Below are positions 21,633-37,085 of a stretch of 51,639 nucleotides of DNA, in pieces. Numbering within the stretch: position 1 is the first letter of the stretch; every line of letters starts with the position of its first letter. Location: contig JAHFFW010000017.1 of assembly GCA_023247725.1 (NCBI GenBank), positions 1 through 51,639 on the forward strand, written 5' to 3'. The notes under the pieces are model-generated. The model ran no database searches, was not told the origin of the DNA, and saw only the letters and a list, made by a program, of their open reading frames with translations. A program made the position numbers and the translations under genes. This DNA comes from Candidatus Omnitrophota bacterium. GTDB lineage: Bacteria > Omnitrophota > Gorgyraeia > Zapsychrales > JAHFFX01.

Positions 21633-21705
21633 TGGAGCTGACGAGGATCGAACTCGTGACCTCCTGCATGCCATGCAGGCGCTCTCCCAGCTGAGCTACA
21701 GCCCC
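21633..21705 (-). tRNA. tRNA-Ala (GGC)
   Basis: 73 bases on the minus strand including the discriminator A. The anticodon arm is CCTGC ATGGCAT GCAGG with anticodon GGC. The acceptor GGGGCTG/CAGCTCC contains the G3-U70 wobble pair that is the alanine identity element. T loop TTCGATC. CCA is not encoded. Confidence 0.95.
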
Positions 21706-21845
21706 TTTTTTATTTGAAACGTCGGGACCCAGGCGCCCTCTCCCGACATTTTAAAAAATACAATTGAATCAAAGATGTGTCAATATATCATCGGTGTTTG
21801 GCTTTGTCAATCAGGCCAGGACAAGAAGGCTTGCCATTAGCTCTA

Positions 21846-21877
21846 TTGTCAATGCGGATTCGGTTACCGGTTGACAA
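21846..21877 (+). promoter_or_regulatory. BirA operator (biotin repressor box)
   Basis: TTGTCAATG (21846-21854), a 14-base spacer, then GGTTGACAA (21869-21877). The reverse complement of the right half is TTGTCAACC, so the left half matches in seven of nine positions. Half-site sequence and 14-base spacing are those of the conserved bacterial BirA operator. It overlaps the -35 of the promoter of an operon that itself encodes an HTH-containing BirA and biotin genes. Confidence 0.8.
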
Positions 21878-21899
21878 TGCTGCTAAAAAAAGTTAGGAT
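21871..21899 (+). promoter_or_regulatory. Promoter of the cysteine desulfurase-bio operon
   Basis: TTGACA (21871-21876), a 17-base spacer and TAGGAT (21894-21899): a perfect -35 with a four-of-six -10, 17 bases upstream of the ATG at 21917. The -35 lies inside the right BirA half-site, so repressor binding would block polymerase. Confidence 0.65.
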
Positions 21900-21916: not shown

Positions 21917-23068
21917 ATGGAAAAATATTATTTTGATTACGCTTCCACGACTCCCGCCGATCCACAGGTCATTCGGGCCATGGAGCCGTATTTTTTCGAG
22001 CGGTTTGGAAATCCTTCGAGCCCGCACACGATTGGCCAAGAGGCCAAAAAGGCTTTGGAGGATGCCCGGCAAACCGTCGCCGATTTTCTGAATGCCCAGC
22101 CCCAGGAAATTCTTTTCACCTCGGGAGGAACGGAATCCAATAACCATGCCACAATTGGGCAGGGCCGGGCAAGAAAATCCCAAGGGCAGCATATCATTGT
22201 TTCTGCCATAGAACATCACTCCGCCTTGCGTCCGGTAGAATCCCTTCAAAAGGAAGGTTTTCAGGTGAGTTTTCTTCCGGTCGACCGCTATGGATGGCTT
22301 GATCCCGAGCAGGTTATATGCGCTGTTCATGATAAGACCATTCTCATTATCCTTCTGCACGCCAGCAATGAAATTGGAACTCTCCAGGATATCGAAGCAA
22401 TCGGACGATTTGCCACCGAGCGCAAGATGGCCTTCCATGTGGATGCGGTTCAGACCGTAGGGCATCTGCCCGTCGATGTACAAAAGATTGGGTGTTCGAC
22501 GCTGTCCTTGTCCGGGCATAAGCTTTATGGACCCAAAGGAATCGGGGCTCTTTATCTAAGGAAGGGAACGCCGCTTACGAGTTTTCTTCTGGGCGGCGAT
22601 CAGGAACAAGGACGACGCGCTTCGACCCAAAATGTCGCCGGCGCCGTTGGCCTGGCCAAGGCGGTCGAAATTTGCCAGTCACAAATGCTCGAAGAAGCAA
22701 AACTGCAGCGCGAGCTGCGCGATCGGTTGATTCAAAAGATTTCGACCCAAATCCCCGACGCCATTCTCAATGGCCACCCCACCCGACGGCTGCCCAACAA
22801 TGCGCATTTTTCTTTTCCCGGGATTGACAGCGAATCGTTGTTGATGAGTTTGGATCTGGCGGGAATTTGTGCGTCGATGGGGTCCGCGTGCACGTCGGGG
22901 GTGCTCAAAGCCTCCCATGTCTTGACGGCCATCGGATTGAGCGAAGAATTGGCCTTCGGTTCCCTGCGTTTATCCGTCGGACGTTGGACAAGGCCTGACC
23001 ACATTGATTATCTTTCCTCCATCCTCCCTGACACGATCAGGCGCCTGCGAAAGACGGCTTCGATTTAA
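21917..23068 (+). CDS. Cysteine desulfurase (NifS/IscS type)
   Basis: This 383-residue PLP enzyme takes sulfur from cysteine for Fe-S clusters and thiolated cofactors. The PLP Lys is in LSGHKLYGPKG (Lys202), the catalytic Cys loop is GSACTSG (Cys325), and the PLP-anchoring TSGGTESNN is present. It belongs to the NifS/IscS class rather than SufS, by the loop form. It is the first gene behind the BirA-controlled promoter and is followed by birA after five bases. Co-regulation with biotin genes makes sense because biotin synthase consumes Fe-S sulfur (inference). It could also feed MnmA, encoded about 9 kb downstream. Confidence 0.9.
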   Translation: MEKYYFDYASTTPADPQVIRAMEPYFFERFGNPSSPHTIGQEAKKALEDARQTVADFLNAQPQEILFTSGGTESNNHATIGQGRARKSQGQHIIVSAIEHHSALRPVESLQKEGFQVSFLPVDRYGWLDPEQVICAVHDKTILIILLHASNEIGTLQDIEAIGRFATERKMAFHVDAVQTVGHLPVDVQKIGCSTLSLSGHKLYGPKGIGALYLRKGTPLTSFLLGGDQEQGRRASTQNVAGAVGLAKAVEICQSQMLEEAKLQRELRDRLIQKISTQIPDAILNGHPTRRLPNNAHFSFPGIDSESLLMSLDLAGICASMGSACTSGVLKASHVLTAIGLSEELAFGSLRLSVGRWTRPDHIDYLSSILPDTIRRLRKTASI

Positions 23069-23073
23069 CGATC

Positions 23074-24030
23074 ATGCAAGAACAAATCCTCCAATTTCTC
23101 AAAGAACATGACGGTTACCTTTCTGGTGAAGAGATCAGCCATTCTCTCAAGATGAGCCGTACCGCTATCTGGAAGTACATGCAAGAATTAAGAAAAGTCG
23201 GATATGAAATCGTGGCGGTGCCGCATTTGGGTTATAAGATTGTTTCCGTTCCGGATAAATTGTTCCCCTGGGAAATCCAATTTGGTCTGGGAACCAAGGT
23301 CATGGGACAAAAGATCGTGTACGAGGAAACCTTGACCTCGACGATGGATACGGCCTTCGAGCTGGCGGTTGCGGGATCCCCGGAAGGCACTCTCGTGTGT
23401 TCGGAAAGCCAAACCCATGGCCGCGGACGAATGGGAAGGACCTGGATTTCACCAAAATCCAAGGGAATTTACCTGTCGTTGATTTTACGACCGAAGCTGC
23501 CGCCCATGGAAACCGCCAAATTGACATTGTTGACCGCGGTTGTTGTCAGTGAAGCCATCCAAAAGATTTGCGGTTTCGAAGTTCAAATCAAATGGCCCAA
23601 TGATCTTTTGGTGGGGAGGAAAAAATTGGCCGGCATCCTGACCGAGTTGCACGCTGATCCTGACCGGGTCAAATTTGTGGTGGTGGGAATTGGATTGAAC
23701 GTCAATACCCAGAGCCATCAATTGCCGCCGGGATCAACCTCGCTAAAACTTGAAACCGGACAGACATGGTCACGGGTTAGCCTCATCCAGGAAATGCTTA
23801 AGGAATGGGAACAATGGTATAGCCAATTCACTCGCCGGGGATTTGAACCGATTCTAAAACGTTGGAAAGAATTGTCAGTCACTTTAGGGAGGCGCGTGCG
23901 CGTCAGCGACCCGTCAGGAGTGATCGAAGGGGAGGCCAAAGACATTGACACCGACGGAGGTTTGCTCATCCGTTTGGATTCCGGCCTTATCCTCAAGCGC
24001 ATGGCCGGTGATGTCATGTGGGCGCAGTAG
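23074..24030 (+). CDS. birA: Bifunctional biotin ligase / biotin operon repressor
   Basis: This 318-residue class II BirA has an N-terminal winged helix (about 1-60; EEISHSLKMSRTAIWKYMQELR) and a ligase core with HGRGRMGRTW (biotinyl-AMP loop) and KWPNDLLVGRKKLAGIL. A C-terminal SH3-like cap (LGRRVRVSDPSGVIEGEAKDID) completes the enzyme. It biotinylates carboxylase carrier domains and, loaded with biotinyl-AMP, represses biotin genes. A matching operator lies in front of its own operon. Confidence 0.95.
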   Translation: MQEQILQFLKEHDGYLSGEEISHSLKMSRTAIWKYMQELRKVGYEIVAVPHLGYKIVSVPDKLFPWEIQFGLGTKVMGQKIVYEETLTSTMDTAFELAVAGSPEGTLVCSESQTHGRGRMGRTWISPKSKGIYLSLILRPKLPPMETAKLTLLTAVVVSEAIQKICGFEVQIKWPNDLLVGRKKLAGILTELHADPDRVKFVVVGIGLNVNTQSHQLPPGSTSLKLETGQTWSRVSLIQEMLKEWEQWYSQFTRRGFEPILKRWKELSVTLGRRVRVSDPSGVIEGEAKDIDTDGGLLIRLDSGLILKRMAGDVMWAQ

Positions 24031-24034
24031 ATCA

Positions 24035-25207
24035 ATGAATGATCTTGAATTACAGGAATCTCTTCGAGAGATCGAACGTCAGGGCCTCTGCCGGAATTTA
24101 CGGCTAACCGAAGGACCGCAAAGTCGTGAAATCACGATGAACGGCCAAAAGGTCTTGAACTTTTGTTCCAATAATTATTTGGGGCTCGCGGATCATCCGC
24201 AATTGCGTTTGGCGGCCATCCGTGCGATTGAAGCGGAAGGGGTTGGCTCGGGGGCTTCCCGGTTAGTTTGCGGCCATATGAGGGCTCATCAAAAATTGGA
24301 AGCGCGCCTGGCCGGGTTCAAAGGCACGCCGAGCGCGTTGGTTTTCAGTACCGGATATATGGCGAATGTGGGAATCCTCGCGAGTATTTGTGAACGCGGT
24401 GACATCATTTTTTCTGACCGGCTGAACCACGCCTCCATCGTGGATGGAAGCTTGCTCAGTCAGGCTGTGTTCAAACGATATCCTCATAAGGACATGGCGA
24501 CTCTCGAAGAATGGTTGAAATCCGCCGGCGGATTTCGTCGACGGCTTATTGTGACTGACAGTGTCTTCAGCATGGATGGAGACATCGCTCCGTTAGACCA
24601 AATCGTTGAACTTGCGCAAAGATATGATGCCATGGTGATGGTGGATGAGGCGCATGCCTTTGGCGTTTTGGGTCAGCATGGCAAAGGGGCGGTTGAACAT
24701 TTTCATTTGGAAGGAAAGGTTGACATCCAAATGGGAACGCTCAGCAAGGCCGCCGGCGTTTTTGGGGCTTATTGTTGTGGATCATCCGAATTGATCCAAT
24801 TCCTGGTCAACCGGGCGCGGAGTTTTATTTACACGACTGCCATGCCACCGGCGATCGCGGCGGCGGCAACGGCGGCGATTGATCTCTTGGAACGCGAACC
24901 CCAGCGTCGAGAAAATCTCTGGAAAAATTCCGTGTATGTTCGAACCGAATTGCAGCGGATGGGATTTTCCACCCTCGAATCGCAAACGCCCATCATCCCT
25001 TTGATTGTCAAGGATTCGCAAAAGGCCGTAGAATTCTCTCAAAGGCTATTGGAATCAGGAATTTTTGTCCAGGCCATCCGGCCTCCGACGGTCCCAAACA
25101 ATACCGCCCGTCTGAGGGTCACGGTGATGGCGACCCACACCAAGGAAGATTTGGATTGCCTGCTGGGCGCTATTCGCACCGTGGGAAAACACTTATGCCT
25201 TATCTGA
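24035..25207 (+). CDS. bioF: 8-amino-7-oxononanoate synthase
   Basis: From the ATG at 24035 the product has 390 residues. It is an alpha-oxoamine synthase that condenses pimeloyl-thioester with alanine. PLP Lys238 is in GTLSKAAGVFGAY, VDEAHAFGVLG binds the PLP ring, and NFCSNNYLGLADHP is the family N-terminus. 2-Amino-3-ketobutyrate CoA ligase (Kbl) is a close relative, but the position between birA and bioH/bioC supports BioF. An in-frame start at 23945 would run inside birA and was rejected. It begins four bases after birA. Confidence 0.9.
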   Translation: MNDLELQESLREIERQGLCRNLRLTEGPQSREITMNGQKVLNFCSNNYLGLADHPQLRLAAIRAIEAEGVGSGASRLVCGHMRAHQKLEARLAGFKGTPSALVFSTGYMANVGILASICERGDIIFSDRLNHASIVDGSLLSQAVFKRYPHKDMATLEEWLKSAGGFRRRLIVTDSVFSMDGDIAPLDQIVELAQRYDAMVMVDEAHAFGVLGQHGKGAVEHFHLEGKVDIQMGTLSKAAGVFGAYCCGSSELIQFLVNRARSFIYTTAMPPAIAAAATAAIDLLEREPQRRENLWKNSVYVRTELQRMGFSTLESQTPIIPLIVKDSQKAVEFSQRLLESGIFVQAIRPPTVPNNTARLRVTVMATHTKEDLDCLLGAIRTVGKHLCLI

Positions 25208-26016
25208 ACGGCCCGTCGGGCATTGTTTGGCATTATGAGGAGGTCGGAAAAGGACAAACGATTATTTTCTTACACGGTTGGGGCGTTAGCAGCCAGATTT
25301 GGACTCAGCAGTTGGGATTCTTTTCTCGGACTCATCGCGTCCTGGCCTTAGATTTGCCTGGGCATGGCTTAAGCAACCGGAAAAAAATCACCTTTGATTC
25401 CATGGTCAACGATATCGATTTTTTCGTCAAGGCAAAAGAAGAAAAATCATTGCACCTGGTGGCAAGCTCCTTCGGAGGCTTAATCGCGATCCTGATTGCG
25501 TTTTTGCCGCAGGTCAAAAGCCTCACCTTGGTTGGCGCACTGCCGAAATTTCTTCAATCATCCGATTATCCTTATGGCCTGGCCCCGGAACGCGTGGCCA
25601 AGCTCAGAGCCCAGCTCGTCAAGGATTACCCCTCGATCGTGCAGATTTTTTTTCGTTCTCTTTTTACATCGAAAGAACGTCAAGGCGAATGGTTCCGTTG
25701 GCTAGAATCATTCCGTGCCCAACAAAAGGTTCCACAAAAAAGGGCTTTGGAACGATTGCTGGATATGATCGAAAAGGAGGATCGGCGCAAGGAATTTCTT
25801 CAGCTTCAGCTTCCTCTATTATTGGTGAATGGAACCGAAGATGCCATTTGTCCTTTGCCCGGGGCGGTTTATTTGAAAAAGCAAAAGCCGCACGCCCGGC
25901 TGGAATTGTTTGAAGATTGTGGGCATTTCCCGTTTCTTTCGCATCCAGAGAAGTTTAATAAACTCTTGGAAGATTTTCTCAAGGAAGTAAAACCTTCGCT
26001 CTCCGCCAGGAGATAG
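25195..26016 (+). CDS. bioH: Alpha/beta hydrolase, probable pimeloyl-ACP methyl ester esterase
   Basis: From the ATG at 25195 the product has 273 residues, overlapping bioF by 13 bases. Nucleophile Ser92 is in ASSFGG, the acid is in NGTEDAICP, the His is in CGHFPFLSHPEKF, and the oxyanion loop is FLHGWGVSSQIW. In the pathway BioH removes the methyl group from pimeloyl-ACP methyl ester before BioF acts. The assignment rests on the fold and the position between bioF and bioC; alternative esterases (BioG, BioK, BioJ) fill this role elsewhere. Confidence 0.75.
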   Translation: MPYLNGPSGIVWHYEEVGKGQTIIFLHGWGVSSQIWTQQLGFFSRTHRVLALDLPGHGLSNRKKITFDSMVNDIDFFVKAKEEKSLHLVASSFGGLIAILIAFLPQVKSLTLVGALPKFLQSSDYPYGLAPERVAKLRAQLVKDYPSIVQIFFRSLFTSKERQGEWFRWLESFRAQQKVPQKRALERLLDMIEKEDRRKEFLQLQLPLLLVNGTEDAICPLPGAVYLKKQKPHARLELFEDCGHFPFLSHPEKFNKLLEDFLKEVKPSLSARR

Positions 26017-26028
26017 GCGCGATCAACC

Positions 26029-26814
26029 ATGCCTATCAAAATTATCAATCAAAAAGTTTGTAAGGCATTCTCCGACGCTGCCGGCCAATATGAGCAGTTA
26101 ACCAGCTTGCATAAAGACATTGGACGCGAGCTTATCAAGCGCATCCGAGCCCCGAACGATGCTCCCTCGATTTTGGATGTGGGAATGGGGACCGGGTGGT
26201 TGACGGGTCAGTTGTGCTCTTTTTTTCCTCAGTCACTTGTTGTGGGAGTGGATTTTGCGCCAGGGATGATTGAGGTGGCTTCTCGGCTCAATGAGGAAGA
26301 GTTTACCATCATCGGAGCCGACGCCAGGTGTCTTCCTTTCAGAAGTGAAACGTTCGATGTCATTGTTTCCAATCTGGCCTACCATTGGCTGGAGGATTTG
26401 CCGTCGGCGTTTGCGCAATGTCATCGTACACTAAAAAAAGGCGGAATATTGGGATTGACGATGTGCGGCCGGCAAACCTTCGATGAATTGTTCCTCGCCC
26501 TGGAAAAAACACAAGGCCCGGGAGAAATATTCGCCATCCGCCGCCTGCCACCCGAAGAATTGATTGCCGAATCTTTGCAAAAGGCAGGCTTCAAAAACGC
26601 GGAGATCAAGCAAGAGCAAAAGCGACTCCGGTTCTCCGAGATGATGGGATTGATTCAATGGATCAAGGATATCGGGGCTAATGCGCTCGCCCAGGACATA
26701 TATATAGGGAAGGCATGGCTCAAGAGGGCCAGCGAGTACTACAACCAACATTGCAAAGATCGCCTCGGGATTTATGCGACCTTTGAGGTGGTTTGGGTTG
26801 TGGCGAAAAAATAA
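26029..26814 (+). CDS. bioC: Malonyl-ACP O-methyltransferase
   Basis: This 261-residue class I SAM methyltransferase has motif I at ILDVGMGTGWLTG, a post-I acidic strand VVGVDFAPGMI, and NLAYHWLEDLP typical of BioC. The N-terminal helix KAFSDAAGQYEQ is the family start. BioC methylates malonyl-ACP to begin pimelate synthesis. Together with the neighbouring BioH it implies the BioC-BioH route to pimeloyl-ACP. Confidence 0.88.
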   Translation: MPIKIINQKVCKAFSDAAGQYEQLTSLHKDIGRELIKRIRAPNDAPSILDVGMGTGWLTGQLCSFFPQSLVVGVDFAPGMIEVASRLNEEEFTIIGADARCLPFRSETFDVIVSNLAYHWLEDLPSAFAQCHRTLKKGGILGLTMCGRQTFDELFLALEKTQGPGEIFAIRRLPPEELIAESLQKAGFKNAEIKQEQKRLRFSEMMGLIQWIKDIGANALAQDIYIGKAWLKRASEYYNQHCKDRLGIYATFEVVWVVAKK

Positions 26815-26905: not shown

Positions 26906-28948
26906 ATGAAGAAATCATATTTTATAACCGGCACCGACACCGACATTGGGAAAACCGTCGTGACGATGGTGCTCGCCATGCTTCTTCAAGAAAGAGGCAT
27001 CAAGGTCGGTGTTATGAAGCCAGTGCAGTGCGGTGGCACCGATGCTTTATTTTTGCAGAAATCTCTGCAGTTGCCTCAACCTCTTTCGGTCATCAACCCA
27101 TGTTTTGCGCCAGAGCCATTGAGTCCGCATCTGGCCTTTCGCCGGGCAGGAAAGAAAATCAACCTGAAAAAGATTCAGGCCGCACTTTGGTCCTTGCAAA
27201 AGTCTCACGATGTGATTTTGTTGGAAGGGGCTGGCGGGTTGCTCGTGCCTCTGCGGCAAGATTACCTCGTCGCGGATTTGGCCCGGGATTTGCAAAGCGA
27301 ATTAGTGATCGTATCGGCCTTGCGGCTGGGAACGATCAATCACACGCTTTTAACGATCAAGATGGCGCAGGCCTACGGCTTAAAAGTCAAGGGAGTCATC
27401 TTTAATACCATTTCTTCCGGGCCTGCCGGGATTCCAGAAAAGACCAACCCAGAAGTGATCCAGCGTCTGGGAAGAGTTCCAATTTTGGGGATCGTTCCTT
27501 TTTTAGAACAAAAAGGTCGAGTTTCTATCGTCAAAAAATGTCAAAAAAAGATTCAACTGGAAGAATTCCTTAAGCCCAAGAAACCGGATGAGCATTGGAT
27601 GACCTGGGACAAACAGTATCTTTGGCATCCTTTCACGCCGATGAAAGATTGGCTTTTAAGCGAACCTTTAGTGATCGAATCCGGTCAAGGGAATTTGCTT
27701 GAGGACACGGAGGGAAGGCGATACATCGATGGAGTTTCCAGTTTGTGGGCGAATCTCCACGGCCATCGGCATCCCCGAATTAATCAGGCGATTTCAACTC
27801 AGTTGAATCGCATCGCGCACTCGACGCTTTTGGGGCTGACTCATCCGCCGGCCGTAGAATTAGCCAAGCGGCTTTGTGAAATCGCGCCGAAAGGATTGAC
27901 GAAGGTTTTTTATTCGGACAATGGCTCAACGGCGGTCGAGGCCGCAATCAAGATGGCCTATCAATACTGGCAGAATACCGGCGGGCGCAAAAAGACAACG
28001 ATCGCGCATCTTTCCAATTCTTATCATGGCGACACGCTGGGCAGCGTTAGCGTCGGAGGAATCGATCTGTTCCATCGGGTTTACCGGAATCTCATGTTCA
28101 AAACGATTGCCGTGGAATTTCCCGATTTCTATCGTTGTCCGCTGGGGAAAAAATATCCCGACTACACTCATGAGTGCCTGGACAAACTCGAAAGCCTCTT
28201 CAAAAGACGGCATGACACGATGGCCGCGCTCGTCATCGAACCGCTGGTGCAAGGGGCTGCCGGCATGATTGTCTGGCCCGACGGGATTTTGAGACGGATA
28301 GTGGGGGGCTGTAAAAAATACGACATTCTTTTCATTGCGGATGAAGTGGCCACCGGTTTCGGCCGGACCGGCAAAATGTTTGCTTGCAACCATGAAGGGG
28401 TTGTTCCGGATTTTTTGTGTCTTGCGAAAGGTCTAACCGGCGGCTATCTTCCTCTGGCCGCAACACTGACAACTCAAAGAATTTTTGAAGGATTTCTGTT
28501 TGATTATGAGGACCAAAAGACTTTTTTTCATGGCCATACCTATACCGGAAACCCTTTAGCCTGCGCCGCCGCCTTGGCCAATCTGGAAATTTTTCAAAAA
28601 GAAAAAACGCTGAAAAAAATTCAGCCCAAAATAAAATATTTGGCGAAAAAATTGCGAACGTTTTATAATCTAGCCTCTGTCGGCGATATCCGGCAAAAGG
28701 GTTGGATGGTCGGCATTGAACTCGTCAAGGATCTGAAGACCAAAGAGCCATTTGCGTGGGAAGAAAGGATTGGAGTGAAAGTTTGCATGGAGGCCCGCAA
28801 GCACGGCGTTATCCTTCGGCCGTTGGGGAACGTGATCGTCCTGATGCCGCCGCTGGCGATCAACGAGGAAGGGATCGATAAACTTTTGGATGTGGCTTAC
28901 AAAGCTATTGAGAGAGTAACCAGTAATCAGGAGGGCAAAAATGATTAA
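26906..28948 (+). CDS. bioDA: Fused dethiobiotin synthetase - DAPA aminotransferase
   Basis: The 680 residues join two biotin enzymes. Residues 1 to about 225 are BioD: P-loop GTDTDIGKT, the KPVQCGG loop and LEGAGGLLVPL. Residues from about 230 are BioA: WHPFTPMKDW, SDNGSTAVEAAIKMAYQYW, FIADEVATGFGRTG and PLP Lys508 in LAKGLTGG. BioA makes diaminopelargonate and BioD closes its ureido ring, so the fusion links consecutive steps in BioD-BioA order, as in the plant BIO3-BIO1 protein. No frame break is present at the joint. The last eight bases overlap a tiny downstream ORF. Confidence 0.93.
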   Translation: MKKSYFITGTDTDIGKTVVTMVLAMLLQERGIKVGVMKPVQCGGTDALFLQKSLQLPQPLSVINPCFAPEPLSPHLAFRRAGKKINLKKIQAALWSLQKSHDVILLEGAGGLLVPLRQDYLVADLARDLQSELVIVSALRLGTINHTLLTIKMAQAYGLKVKGVIFNTISSGPAGIPEKTNPEVIQRLGRVPILGIVPFLEQKGRVSIVKKCQKKIQLEEFLKPKKPDEHWMTWDKQYLWHPFTPMKDWLLSEPLVIESGQGNLLEDTEGRRYIDGVSSLWANLHGHRHPRINQAISTQLNRIAHSTLLGLTHPPAVELAKRLCEIAPKGLTKVFYSDNGSTAVEAAIKMAYQYWQNTGGRKKTTIAHLSNSYHGDTLGSVSVGGIDLFHRVYRNLMFKTIAVEFPDFYRCPLGKKYPDYTHECLDKLESLFKRRHDTMAALVIEPLVQGAAGMIVWPDGILRRIVGGCKKYDILFIADEVATGFGRTGKMFACNHEGVVPDFLCLAKGLTGGYLPLAATLTTQRIFEGFLFDYEDQKTFFHGHTYTGNPLACAAALANLEIFQKEKTLKKIQPKIKYLAKKLRTFYNLASVGDIRQKGWMVGIELVKDLKTKEPFAWEERIGVKVCMEARKHGVILRPLGNVIVLMPPLAINEEGIDKLLDVAYKAIERVTSNQEGKND

Positions 28949-32110: not shown

Positions 32111-33208
32111 ATGATTCATCAAACTAATAAGAAGACTGTCTTCGTCGCCATGAGCGGCGGTGTGGACTCCTCCGTCGTGGCCGGCCTCATGAAGGACCAG
32201 GGTCATGAGGTGGTGGGGGTCACGATGTGTTTTAACATCTCCCACCCGAATTCCAGCCGTCCGTCGTGTTGCGGAGTGGAGGGGATCCAGGATGCACAAA
32301 GGGCGGCGCAGATCCTCGGCATCCCGCATTATGTCTTTAACTTTGCCAAGGAGATTAATGAAAAGATCATCGATAACTTTACCAGCGAATATCTGAACGG
32401 CCGAACGCCGAACCCGTGCGTTCAGTGCAATCAGCATTTGAAGTTTGGTTCACTCTATCGGAAGGTAATGGCCTTGGGGGCAGACGTGATCGCGACCGGC
32501 CATTACGCCAGGGCTGAACAAAATCCCCAGACGCAGAGATTTGAACTAAAGAAAGGAAAGGACCAGCATAAGGATCAGTCCTATTTCCTCTACAGTATGA
32601 GCCAGGAGACCTTGCCCCGGGTTTGGATGCCGTTGGGCGGTTTAACGAAATTGGAGGTGCGGCAATTGGCGCGCCGCTATCAGCTCAATACCGCCGAAAA
32701 GCCGGAGAGTCAAGACATCTGTTTTGTTCCATCGACGGGATATAAGAAGTTTATCGAAGAGCGCGTGGGTGAGGAGGCCGTGCAGCCTGGGGCATTTTTA
32801 GATGAATCCGGCCAAGTGATCGGCCAGCATAAGGGCATCATCCATTACACGATCGGCCAGCGCGATGGACTGGGATTGGCTTTAGGATATCCGGCTTATG
32901 TTTATCGAATTGATCGCGACACTCAGACCGTCCATGTGGGTCGGATGGAGAAATTGTATTCGCGCGGGCTTATAGCCGCTCAAATGAATTATCTGAGCAT
33001 TGATTCGCCCGTCAACAATCTTAAAGTCAAGGCTCGCATTCGATACAATAGTCAGGAAGTGGACGCTGTATTGACTTCGCTCTCGGAGGGCATGGCTCGG
33101 ATTGATTTTGGCGAGCCGATGAAATCAGTGACGCCCGGTCAATCCGTTGTTCTTTATCGCGATGATGTGGTATTAGCCGGTGGAATTATTGAGCAGAAGA
33201 TCGGTTAA
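32111..33208 (+). CDS. mnmA: tRNA-specific 2-thiouridylase
   Basis: This 365-residue enzyme inserts sulfur at U34 (s2U) of tRNA-Lys, -Glu and -Gln. The PP-loop is AMSGGVDSS (residues 13-21), the catalytic Cys pair is Cys103 (NPCVQCN) and Cys204 (SQDICFVP), and GHYAR and IGQRDGLGLALG are family motifs. Sulfur normally comes from a cysteine desulfurase, and one lies 9 kb upstream. The start has almost no ribosome binding site and begins six bases after the hicA remnant. Its first 70 bases are duplicated upstream twice, so its native leader appears to have been replaced. Confidence 0.95.
   Translation: MIHQTNKKTVFVAMSGGVDSSVVAGLMKDQGHEVVGVTMCFNISHPNSSRPSCCGVEGIQDAQRAAQILGIPHYVFNFAKEINEKIIDNFTSEYLNGRTPNPCVQCNQHLKFGSLYRKVMALGADVIATGHYARAEQNPQTQRFELKKGKDQHKDQSYFLYSMSQETLPRVWMPLGGLTKLEVRQLARRYQLNTAEKPESQDICFVPSTGYKKFIEERVGEEAVQPGAFLDESGQVIGQHKGIIHYTIGQRDGLGLALGYPAYVYRIDRDTQTVHVGRMEKLYSRGLIAAQMNYLSIDSPVNNLKVKARIRYNSQEVDAVLTSLSEGMARIDFGEPMKSVTPGQSVVLYRDDVVLAGGIIEQKIG
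32138..32182 (+). repeat. 45-bp exact direct repeat, copy B (inside mnmA)
   Basis: Identical to 31517-31561. This copy lies at codons 10-24 of intact mnmA. Confidence 0.97.
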
Positions 33209-35807: not shown

Positions 35808-37085
35808 ATGATGAGCATTCAATTGAACCGGGATAACCTGCGCGGATTTGTGACACCCGCTGATCTAAAGAAAATTCTCCCTCGAATTCATAAGGCCCAT
35901 GACGACTTGCATCAGAAAAAAGGCAAAGGTCAGGATTGCCTGGGATGGCTGGATCTGCCTTCCAAGGTTCCGGAGGCCCTGGTCGAAGAAATTGAAGAGT
36001 TGGGGCAAAAGGTCAGACGCGGCTCCGATTGCTTAATTAGTTTGGGAATTGGCGGATCGTATTTGGGGATCCGTTCGACGGAGGAATTTTTGCCTGAGCA
36101 AGTGCTTTTGCCCATCCGCTATGCCGGTCATCATATGAGTTCTGATGATCTGGCGGGGTTATTGAAGTATCTGGAAGGAAAGAAACCAACGGTGGTCGTG
36201 ATCTCTAAATCCGGAACGACGACCGAGCCAGCCCTGGCCTTTCGGGTGATCAAAGAATTTCTGGCAAAAAGATTTTCGCCTGCCGAGTTGAAAGAGCGGA
36301 TCATCTGCGTCACCGACGAGAAGAAAGGGGCCTTGAAAAAATTTGCCGAGACTGCCGGGTATCGCACGTTTGTTATTCCGGATGACGTGGGCGGCCGGTT
36401 TTCGGTCTTGACACCGGTGGGTTTAGTGCCACTGAGCTTAATCGGGATTGATATTCAAGCGCTTATTGAAGGAGCCCGTCAGGGGCAGAAAGAGTATGGG
36501 GATCCGGACCTGGAAAAAAATCTCGCTTACCAATACGCAGCCAGTCGCTACCTTTTGTACCAGAAAGGCAAACTGATTGAGGTTCTGGCCTCTTTTTATC
36601 CGAATATGTTTTATATTGCGGAATGGTGGAAACAGATGTTTGGAGAAAGCGATGGAAAAAATGGTCAGGGGATCTTTCCGGCGTCGGTCATTTATTCCAC
36701 GGACTTGCACTCGATGGGACAATTGCTGCAAGACGGAATGCGAGTGATCTTTGAAACCTTTTTATTAATAGAGAAGGTGAATAATGATATTGTGATTCCG
36801 CGGTATTCCAATGATATTGATGGTTTCAATTGTGTCGCGGGAAAGGGACTCGACTACGTGAACAAACAGGCTTACGAGGCTGCCGCTGCAGCGCATTATG
36901 AAGGTGACGTGCCGAATATGACCATCACCCTGGAGAGGGCCGATGCCTTTCACATTGGGCAATTGTATTATTTTTTTGAAAAGGCCGTCGGGATTTCGGG
37001 ATATTTGTTAGGAGTCAATCCTTTTGATCAGCCCGGCGTAGAGGCGTATAAGGAGAAGATGTTCAAATTGTTGGGGAAAAGTTAA
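35808..37085 (+). CDS. pgi: Glucose-6-phosphate isomerase
   Basis: This 425-residue enzyme interconverts glucose-6-phosphate and fructose-6-phosphate. It is the shorter bacterial form (as in Bacillus/Thermotoga) with GIGGSYLGIRS, the phosphate loop SKSGTTTEPALAFR and GGRFSVLTPVGLVPLSLIG. AAAGGA precedes ATGATG at 35808. It lies 12 bases after the TMTC-like gene and is followed by strong hairpins. Confidence 0.95.
   Translation: MMSIQLNRDNLRGFVTPADLKKILPRIHKAHDDLHQKKGKGQDCLGWLDLPSKVPEALVEEIEELGQKVRRGSDCLISLGIGGSYLGIRSTEEFLPEQVLLPIRYAGHHMSSDDLAGLLKYLEGKKPTVVVISKSGTTTEPALAFRVIKEFLAKRFSPAELKERIICVTDEKKGALKKFAETAGYRTFVIPDDVGGRFSVLTPVGLVPLSLIGIDIQALIEGARQGQKEYGDPDLEKNLAYQYAASRYLLYQKGKLIEVLASFYPNMFYIAEWWKQMFGESDGKNGQGIFPASVIYSTDLHSMGQLLQDGMRVIFETFLLIEKVNNDIVIPRYSNDIDGFNCVAGKGLDYVNKQAYEAAAAAHYEGDVPNMTITLERADAFHIGQLYYFFEKAVGISGYLLGVNPFDQPGVEAYKEKMFKLLGKS

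Follow-up and report, generated by a model that had tools for sequence, protein, structure and literature searches.

The window, meaning the whole stretch of 51,639 nt that was analysed, carries a biotin operon whose first gene encodes a cysteine desulfurase. This gene, nifS (21917-23068), belongs to the group I desulfurases of the NifS/IscS type (TIGR03402, 480 bits with a cut-off of 530.75; PF00266, 275 bits). It is followed by birA (23074-24030), encoding a biotin-protein ligase of the group II or repressor type (TIGR00121, 219 bits) in which a domain search detected an N-terminal HTH_11 domain (E 3e-16) together with BPL_LplA_LipB and BPL_C. Next come bioF (24035-25207), encoding 8-amino-7-oxononanoate synthase (TIGR00858, 505 bits, over the cut-off), a gene for a bioH-like alpha/beta hydrolase (25195-26016; TIGR01738, 146 bits, under the cut-off of 207) whose place between bioF and bioC is conserved, and a gene for a bioC-like malonyl-ACP methyltransferase (26029-26814; TIGR02072, 155 bits, under the cut-off of 185). 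The original prediction had named these genes, and profile and domain matches supported the assignments. It did not list the last gene of the operon, a bioD-bioA fusion (26906-28948) of 680 aa that combines dethiobiotin synthetase (AAA_26, residues 4-202) with DAPA aminotransferase (TIGR00508, 565 bits, residues 239-668). The gaps measure 5 nt between nifS and birA, 4 nt between birA and bioF, and 91 nt between bioC and bioDA; bioH overlaps bioF. The tRNA 2-thiouridine synthase gene mnmA (32111-33208) lies 3.2 kb downstream of bioDA, with three unrelated ORFs in between, and is only an unproven candidate member of the same transcript. After mnmA, in a cluster of conserved order, stands a gene of the phosphoglucose isomerase (PGI) family (35808-37085; PF00342). 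All of these genes are on the forward strand.

A BirA-type operator is predicted upstream of nifS on the same strand (21846-21877). It reads TTGTCAATG-N14-GGTTGACAA, with the left half TTGTCAATG, taken directly from the sequence, at 21846-21854 and the right half GGTTGACAA, N14 from the left, at 21869-21877. A sigma-70-type promoter, TTGACA-N17-TAGGAT (21871-21899, forward strand), overlaps it: the -35 hexamer TTGACA (21871-21876) falls within the right half-site, and a 17-bp spacer separates it from the -10 hexamer TAGGAT (21894-21899), downstream of which the nifS ATG is found at 21917. Both the half-sites with their N14 spacing and the -35 hexamer inside the right half had been predicted, and the sequence is exactly as stated; the consensus, a position weight matrix (PWM), and the relatives agree with the assignment to the BirA box.

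Within the window, this box was the sole match to TTGTAAACC-N14-GGTTGACAA at up to three mismatches (chance expectation 0.07), fitting TTGTAAACC and GGTTGACAA at 15 of 18 positions. The PWM, trained on the boxes of relatives alone with the window copy left out, scored it at 23.0 bits versus 12.3 for the runner-up site in the 51.6 kb scanned. Genome-wide searches used exact and 3-mismatch patterns rather than the PWM: the exact box sequence occurred once in the 2.19-Mb genome, and the 3-mismatch search returned one further, chance-like site. By these searches, the window box is the sole strong predicted BirA site found in the genome.

The published BirA consensus is TTGTAAACC-[N14/15]-GGTTTACAA (PMC545781), and the regulon has been described in delta-proteobacteria and Firmicutes (PMC545781, PMC4016012). 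The half-sites in the window match this palindrome. Geobacter sites such as TTGTcAACC-N14-aGTTgACAA have been listed (PMC545781), and the right half in the window likewise contains a GTTgACAA-type sequence. Unlike in most delta-proteobacteria of that study (PMC545781), where birA is apart and unregulated, birA in the window lies within the controlled operon. The window further resembles the delta-proteobacterial and Firmicutes regulon in spacing, in its biotin-gene targets, in encoding an HTH-bearing BirA, and in having one or two sites per genome; it differs in that the operon starts with a cysteine desulfurase and in that bioB is outside the regulon by motif.

In E. coli, the BirA repressor acts at bioO in a divergent operon, and birA is located elsewhere. 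The window shares with this system a ligase-repressor predicted to act at an operator that overlaps promoter elements, and differs from it in operator sequence and spacing, in the divergent arrangement of the E. coli operon, and in the position of birA. The operators of E. coli and B. subtilis are also unlike each other in sequence and spacing (PMC4016012).

Conservation of the operator

The box was present at the same place in 31 of 31 genomes whose operon starts with nifS-birA, i.e., the window genome and 30 relatives drawn from several families of the order. The original prediction had named loss of the dyad in relatives with this gene order as its refutation; every such relative examined kept it, so the operator claim stands. 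Half-site spacing was 14 in the window and 14 or 15 across all 31 nifS promoters. TTGACA was found inside the right half in all 31, and the -10 hexamer was placed at 17 bp in 29. In the 30 relatives, the cores GTNAAC (left) and GTTGACA (right) were near-invariant. Across the 31 promoters, the middle base of the left half was A or C and that of the right half was G without exception, a pattern to be expected of a right half that also serves as the -35 hexamer. The left half in the window ranks among the weakest of the set when compared with the consensus.

Another 20 genomes, which lack this nifS and were found through the box itself (i.e., chosen for having it), have the same box-promoter arrangement immediately before birA. 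There, birA is followed by bioF, bioH, bioC, and bioDA, with mnmA and the PGI-family gene present in most regions that were long enough. Across 73 genomes, the core pattern gave 62 matches versus 12 for a reversed-pattern control, and by our own count about 49 of the 62 sit at birA-operon or bioB promoters. A search with BirA against genome contigs returned four Omnitrophota loci.

The dyad might instead be an accidental look-alike around a strong -35 hexamer, with no regulatory role. Such a reading would account for the TTGACA in the right half, which any strong promoter would contain, and would fit the imperfect left half in the window. Against it, 30 of 30 nifS relatives retain the GTNAAC core of the left half, a part of the dyad that plays no role in the promoter; moreover, the spacing is strict, and the box is also found at bioB promoters in two lineages, where some right halves lack TTGACA. 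We regard a look-alike as highly improbable. The window box precedes biotin genes and overlaps a promoter, and on these comparisons the dyad is a predicted BirA operator overlying the promoter of nifS-birA-bioFHC-bioDA. A chance origin of the dyad was rejected on the PWM margin, the reversed-pattern control, and the expected count of 0.07.

Biotin synthase and the clients of the desulfurase

The bioB gene of this genome is unlinked to the nifS operon and lies on a separate contig (G000:C36). The original prediction had proposed looking for the same box at bioB; exact and 3-mismatch patterns, the PWM, and a core count revealed none at the genome's own bioB, where the best core matched at 7 of 12 positions, and bioB and the desulfurase do not appear to be co-regulated in this genome. 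A full-core box was detected at bioB in five relatives, three of one genus (G011, G042, and G055) and two of another (G037 and G062), and partial remnants were seen in G024 and G059. Judged by motif, BirA control of bioB in the order exists, is sporadic, and is absent from the window genome. The bioB of the order differs from the operon-linked type of class relatives (33-38% identical). As a side observation, the BioB at L069:10088-11197 keeps Cys positions resembling those of classic BioB (CMVF, VCVS, ICSG, AAGRE), and two of three operon-linked BioB proteins of class relatives (L234, L238, and L242) have Asp at the first of these positions; two BioB subtypes are thus found within one class.

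Other families of the class show the order larE-nifS-birA-box-bioB-bioF-bioH-bioC-bioD-bioA-(mnmA-nadA), in which the box promoter begins downstream of birA. In the five cases that were folded (L237, L239, L240, L244, and L245), a terminator-like hairpin lies directly 3' of birA, its loop holding the -10 hexamer TATAAT. Given the promoter position and the hairpin, nifS-birA in these relatives would be a separate unit beyond control of the box. In the same five loci, the BirA-box promoter is superposed on the terminator-like hairpin of the upstream unit. Genes for nfu, HcyBio, and NIL-ferredoxin are found near nifS-birA in many class relatives.

NifS is not restricted to genomes with BioB: 22 of 42 NifS-bearing relatives outside the order had no BioB over the family cut-off, and while a missing bioB in a draft genome could be an assembly gap, this is hardly so for 22 genomes that are ~90-96% complete. 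In several NifS genomes of this kind, the box stands before a gene for a TonB-dependent receptor, followed by mnmA. Among Omnitrophota without BioB over the cut-off, the box was seen before a gene of ~600 aa (L233:9220-11105, L236:8567-10423, L239, L240:10134-12016, and L245). No literature match was found for BirA combined with TonB-dependent biotin transport; the product was a TonB-dependent receptor in the two cases tested and is a candidate BirA-controlled outer-membrane biotin importer.

Within the order, mnmA closes the same cluster, overlapping bioA or lying at most 110 bp away in most genomes showing both, and the desulfurase gene thus shares a genomic region with mnmA. In most genomes of one family (f15), this NifS was the sole desulfurase match and is presumably the housekeeping enzyme there. 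A second desulfurase type, 40-45% identical to this NifS, never co-occurs with it (31 versus 19 of 73 genomes; hypergeometric 3e-6, with kinship not corrected for), which, with the same reservation about kinship, suggests interchangeable enzymes. The nifS gene has been gained or lost repeatedly in the order, nine times when mapped onto the BirA tree, where well-supported branches force three or more of these changes; the box, birA, the bio genes, and mnmA persist where it is absent. A full SUF operon with its own SufS and SufU is encoded on a different contig of the window genome, and NifS as a SUF partner was set aside for this reason. This SUF system could feed BioB or MnmA, which counts against NifS as a general donor.

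The original prediction had read biotin control of the desulfurase as a sign that it supplies Fe-S clusters to biotin synthase. If NifS were dedicated to this enzyme, BirA control would ensure that the sacrificial cluster of BioB receives sulfur only during biotin synthesis. NifS/IscS can feed BioB cluster formation in vitro (PMC8300815), nifS lies just upstream where bioB is linked (nifS-birA-bioB in the class order; nifS directly before bioB in G170), and four of the five relatives with a full-core bioB box also carry the box at nifS. Against this stand the boxless bioB on another contig, the class relatives in which the box does not control nifS, the 22 relatives that keep NifS without a BioB over the cut-off, and the many genomes that have BioB without this nifS or the second type. 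The 20 genomes that keep box, birA, and bio genes without nifS, and the position of mnmA at the end of the cluster, also undercut the proposal. A dedicated BioB supplier is therefore unlikely, and comparison has weakened this part of the original prediction.

A better candidate, still tentative, is that NifS is chiefly the sulfur donor of MnmA, the two forming a pair of the YrvO-MnmA kind split by biotin genes; tRNA thiolation would then be partly biotin-responsive, by chance or design. In Bacillus, the gene for the desulfurase YrvO adjoins mnmA, and YrvO is the direct sulfur donor of MnmA (PMC5372745). The window is like B. subtilis in having a stand-alone IscS-type desulfurase near mnmA and unlike it in that biotin genes part the two, nifS may be absent while mnmA is kept, and the partner activity is putative. 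The pairing is favoured by mnmA closing the cluster whether or not nifS is present, with an overlap with bioA in many genomes, and by relatives with nifS-birA-mnmA (G200) or with nifS and mnmA close together and no bio genes between them (G125 and G144). It is disfavoured by the retention of mnmA in the operon after nifS loss, so that the pair is not obligatory, and by the class relatives, whose nifS beside larE, nfu, and HcyBio suggests several clients. One weak, partial TusA-domain match in the window genome leaves room for a Tus relay. Taken together, NifS is most likely a group I desulfurase that acts as a general sulfur donor or serves MnmA rather than a dedicated BioB supplier, with BioB possibly among its clients, and it would be under BirA control because nifS is an old neighbour of birA.

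Proposed regulation and origin of the operon

The reading we prefer, with a probability of roughly three in four, joins a BirA operator over the nifS-birA-bioFHC-bioDA promoter, a general, non-dedicated NifS donor (serving MnmA, other acceptors, and possibly BioB), and an inherited nifS-birA pairing. Binding of BirA in B. subtilis requires biotin and ATP (PMC4016012). At high biotin levels, BirA loaded with biotinyl-AMP would dimerise on both half-sites and cover the -35 hexamer, switching off the whole operon, with nifS, birA, and the bio genes silenced together; scarcity of biotin would open it. Repression of birA by its own product, as originally proposed, would follow from the place of birA inside the controlled operon.

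The nifS-birA pair may be an old one, residing in a sulfur-handling neighbourhood that also held mnmA. Ancestrally, this pair and a bio-mnmA block would have been neighbours with the operator between them. In the taxonomic order to which the window belongs, the operator-promoter would have ended up ahead of nifS, or ahead of birA where nifS was lost; the linked bioB would have been lost, and a different bioB is found elsewhere in the genome. With the operator ahead of the pair and no longer separating birA from bioB, nifS falls under predicted biotin control. An upstream move of the operator would be the simplest order of events, though the change may have run in the reverse direction. A broader proposal seems to us rather improbable: that BirA couples both sulfur mobilisation and tRNA 2-thiolation to the biotin supply, with one operator repressing the biotin pathway together with the desulfurase and, in genomes whose operon includes mnmA, also the s2U34 thiolase.

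The locus adds an uncultured phylum, Omnitrophota, to the range of the BirA regulon, with the operator neatly overlying the promoter, and places a cysteine desulfurase inside that regulon; a limited open-access literature search found no prior report of a desulfurase in a BirA regulon. As predicted from sequence, this is a familiar type of switch, and the first gene of the operon is unusual but explicable. Comparison across the class also calls for caution: a gene in one operon with biotin genes does not necessarily work for biotin synthase, since nifS-birA is likewise found beyond the common control and in genomes that lack BioB.

Some minor features of the boxes and promoters were also recorded. 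In one relative, a second near-identical BirA box lies 1.8 kb upstream of the nifS promoter (G024:C42:8231 and 10058, locus L056), possibly a promoter duplication. A perfect TGTCAACC-N14-GGTTGACA box at G014:C60:10634-10663 is situated away from the birA operon and the listed bioB. On the minus strand of the window, a divergent promoter-like TTGACA-N17-TATATT (11/12; 21755-21810) faces a tRNA-Ala gene (21633-21705), and TTTGTCAAT, the complement of its -35, reappears upstream of the box in some relatives. In about half of the genomes of the order (L045, L048, L049, L051-L053, L056, and L059-L068), the nifS ATG is located 6-9 nt past the -10 hexamer, so the mRNA is probably leaderless there; the nifS leader in the window would be about 10 nt.
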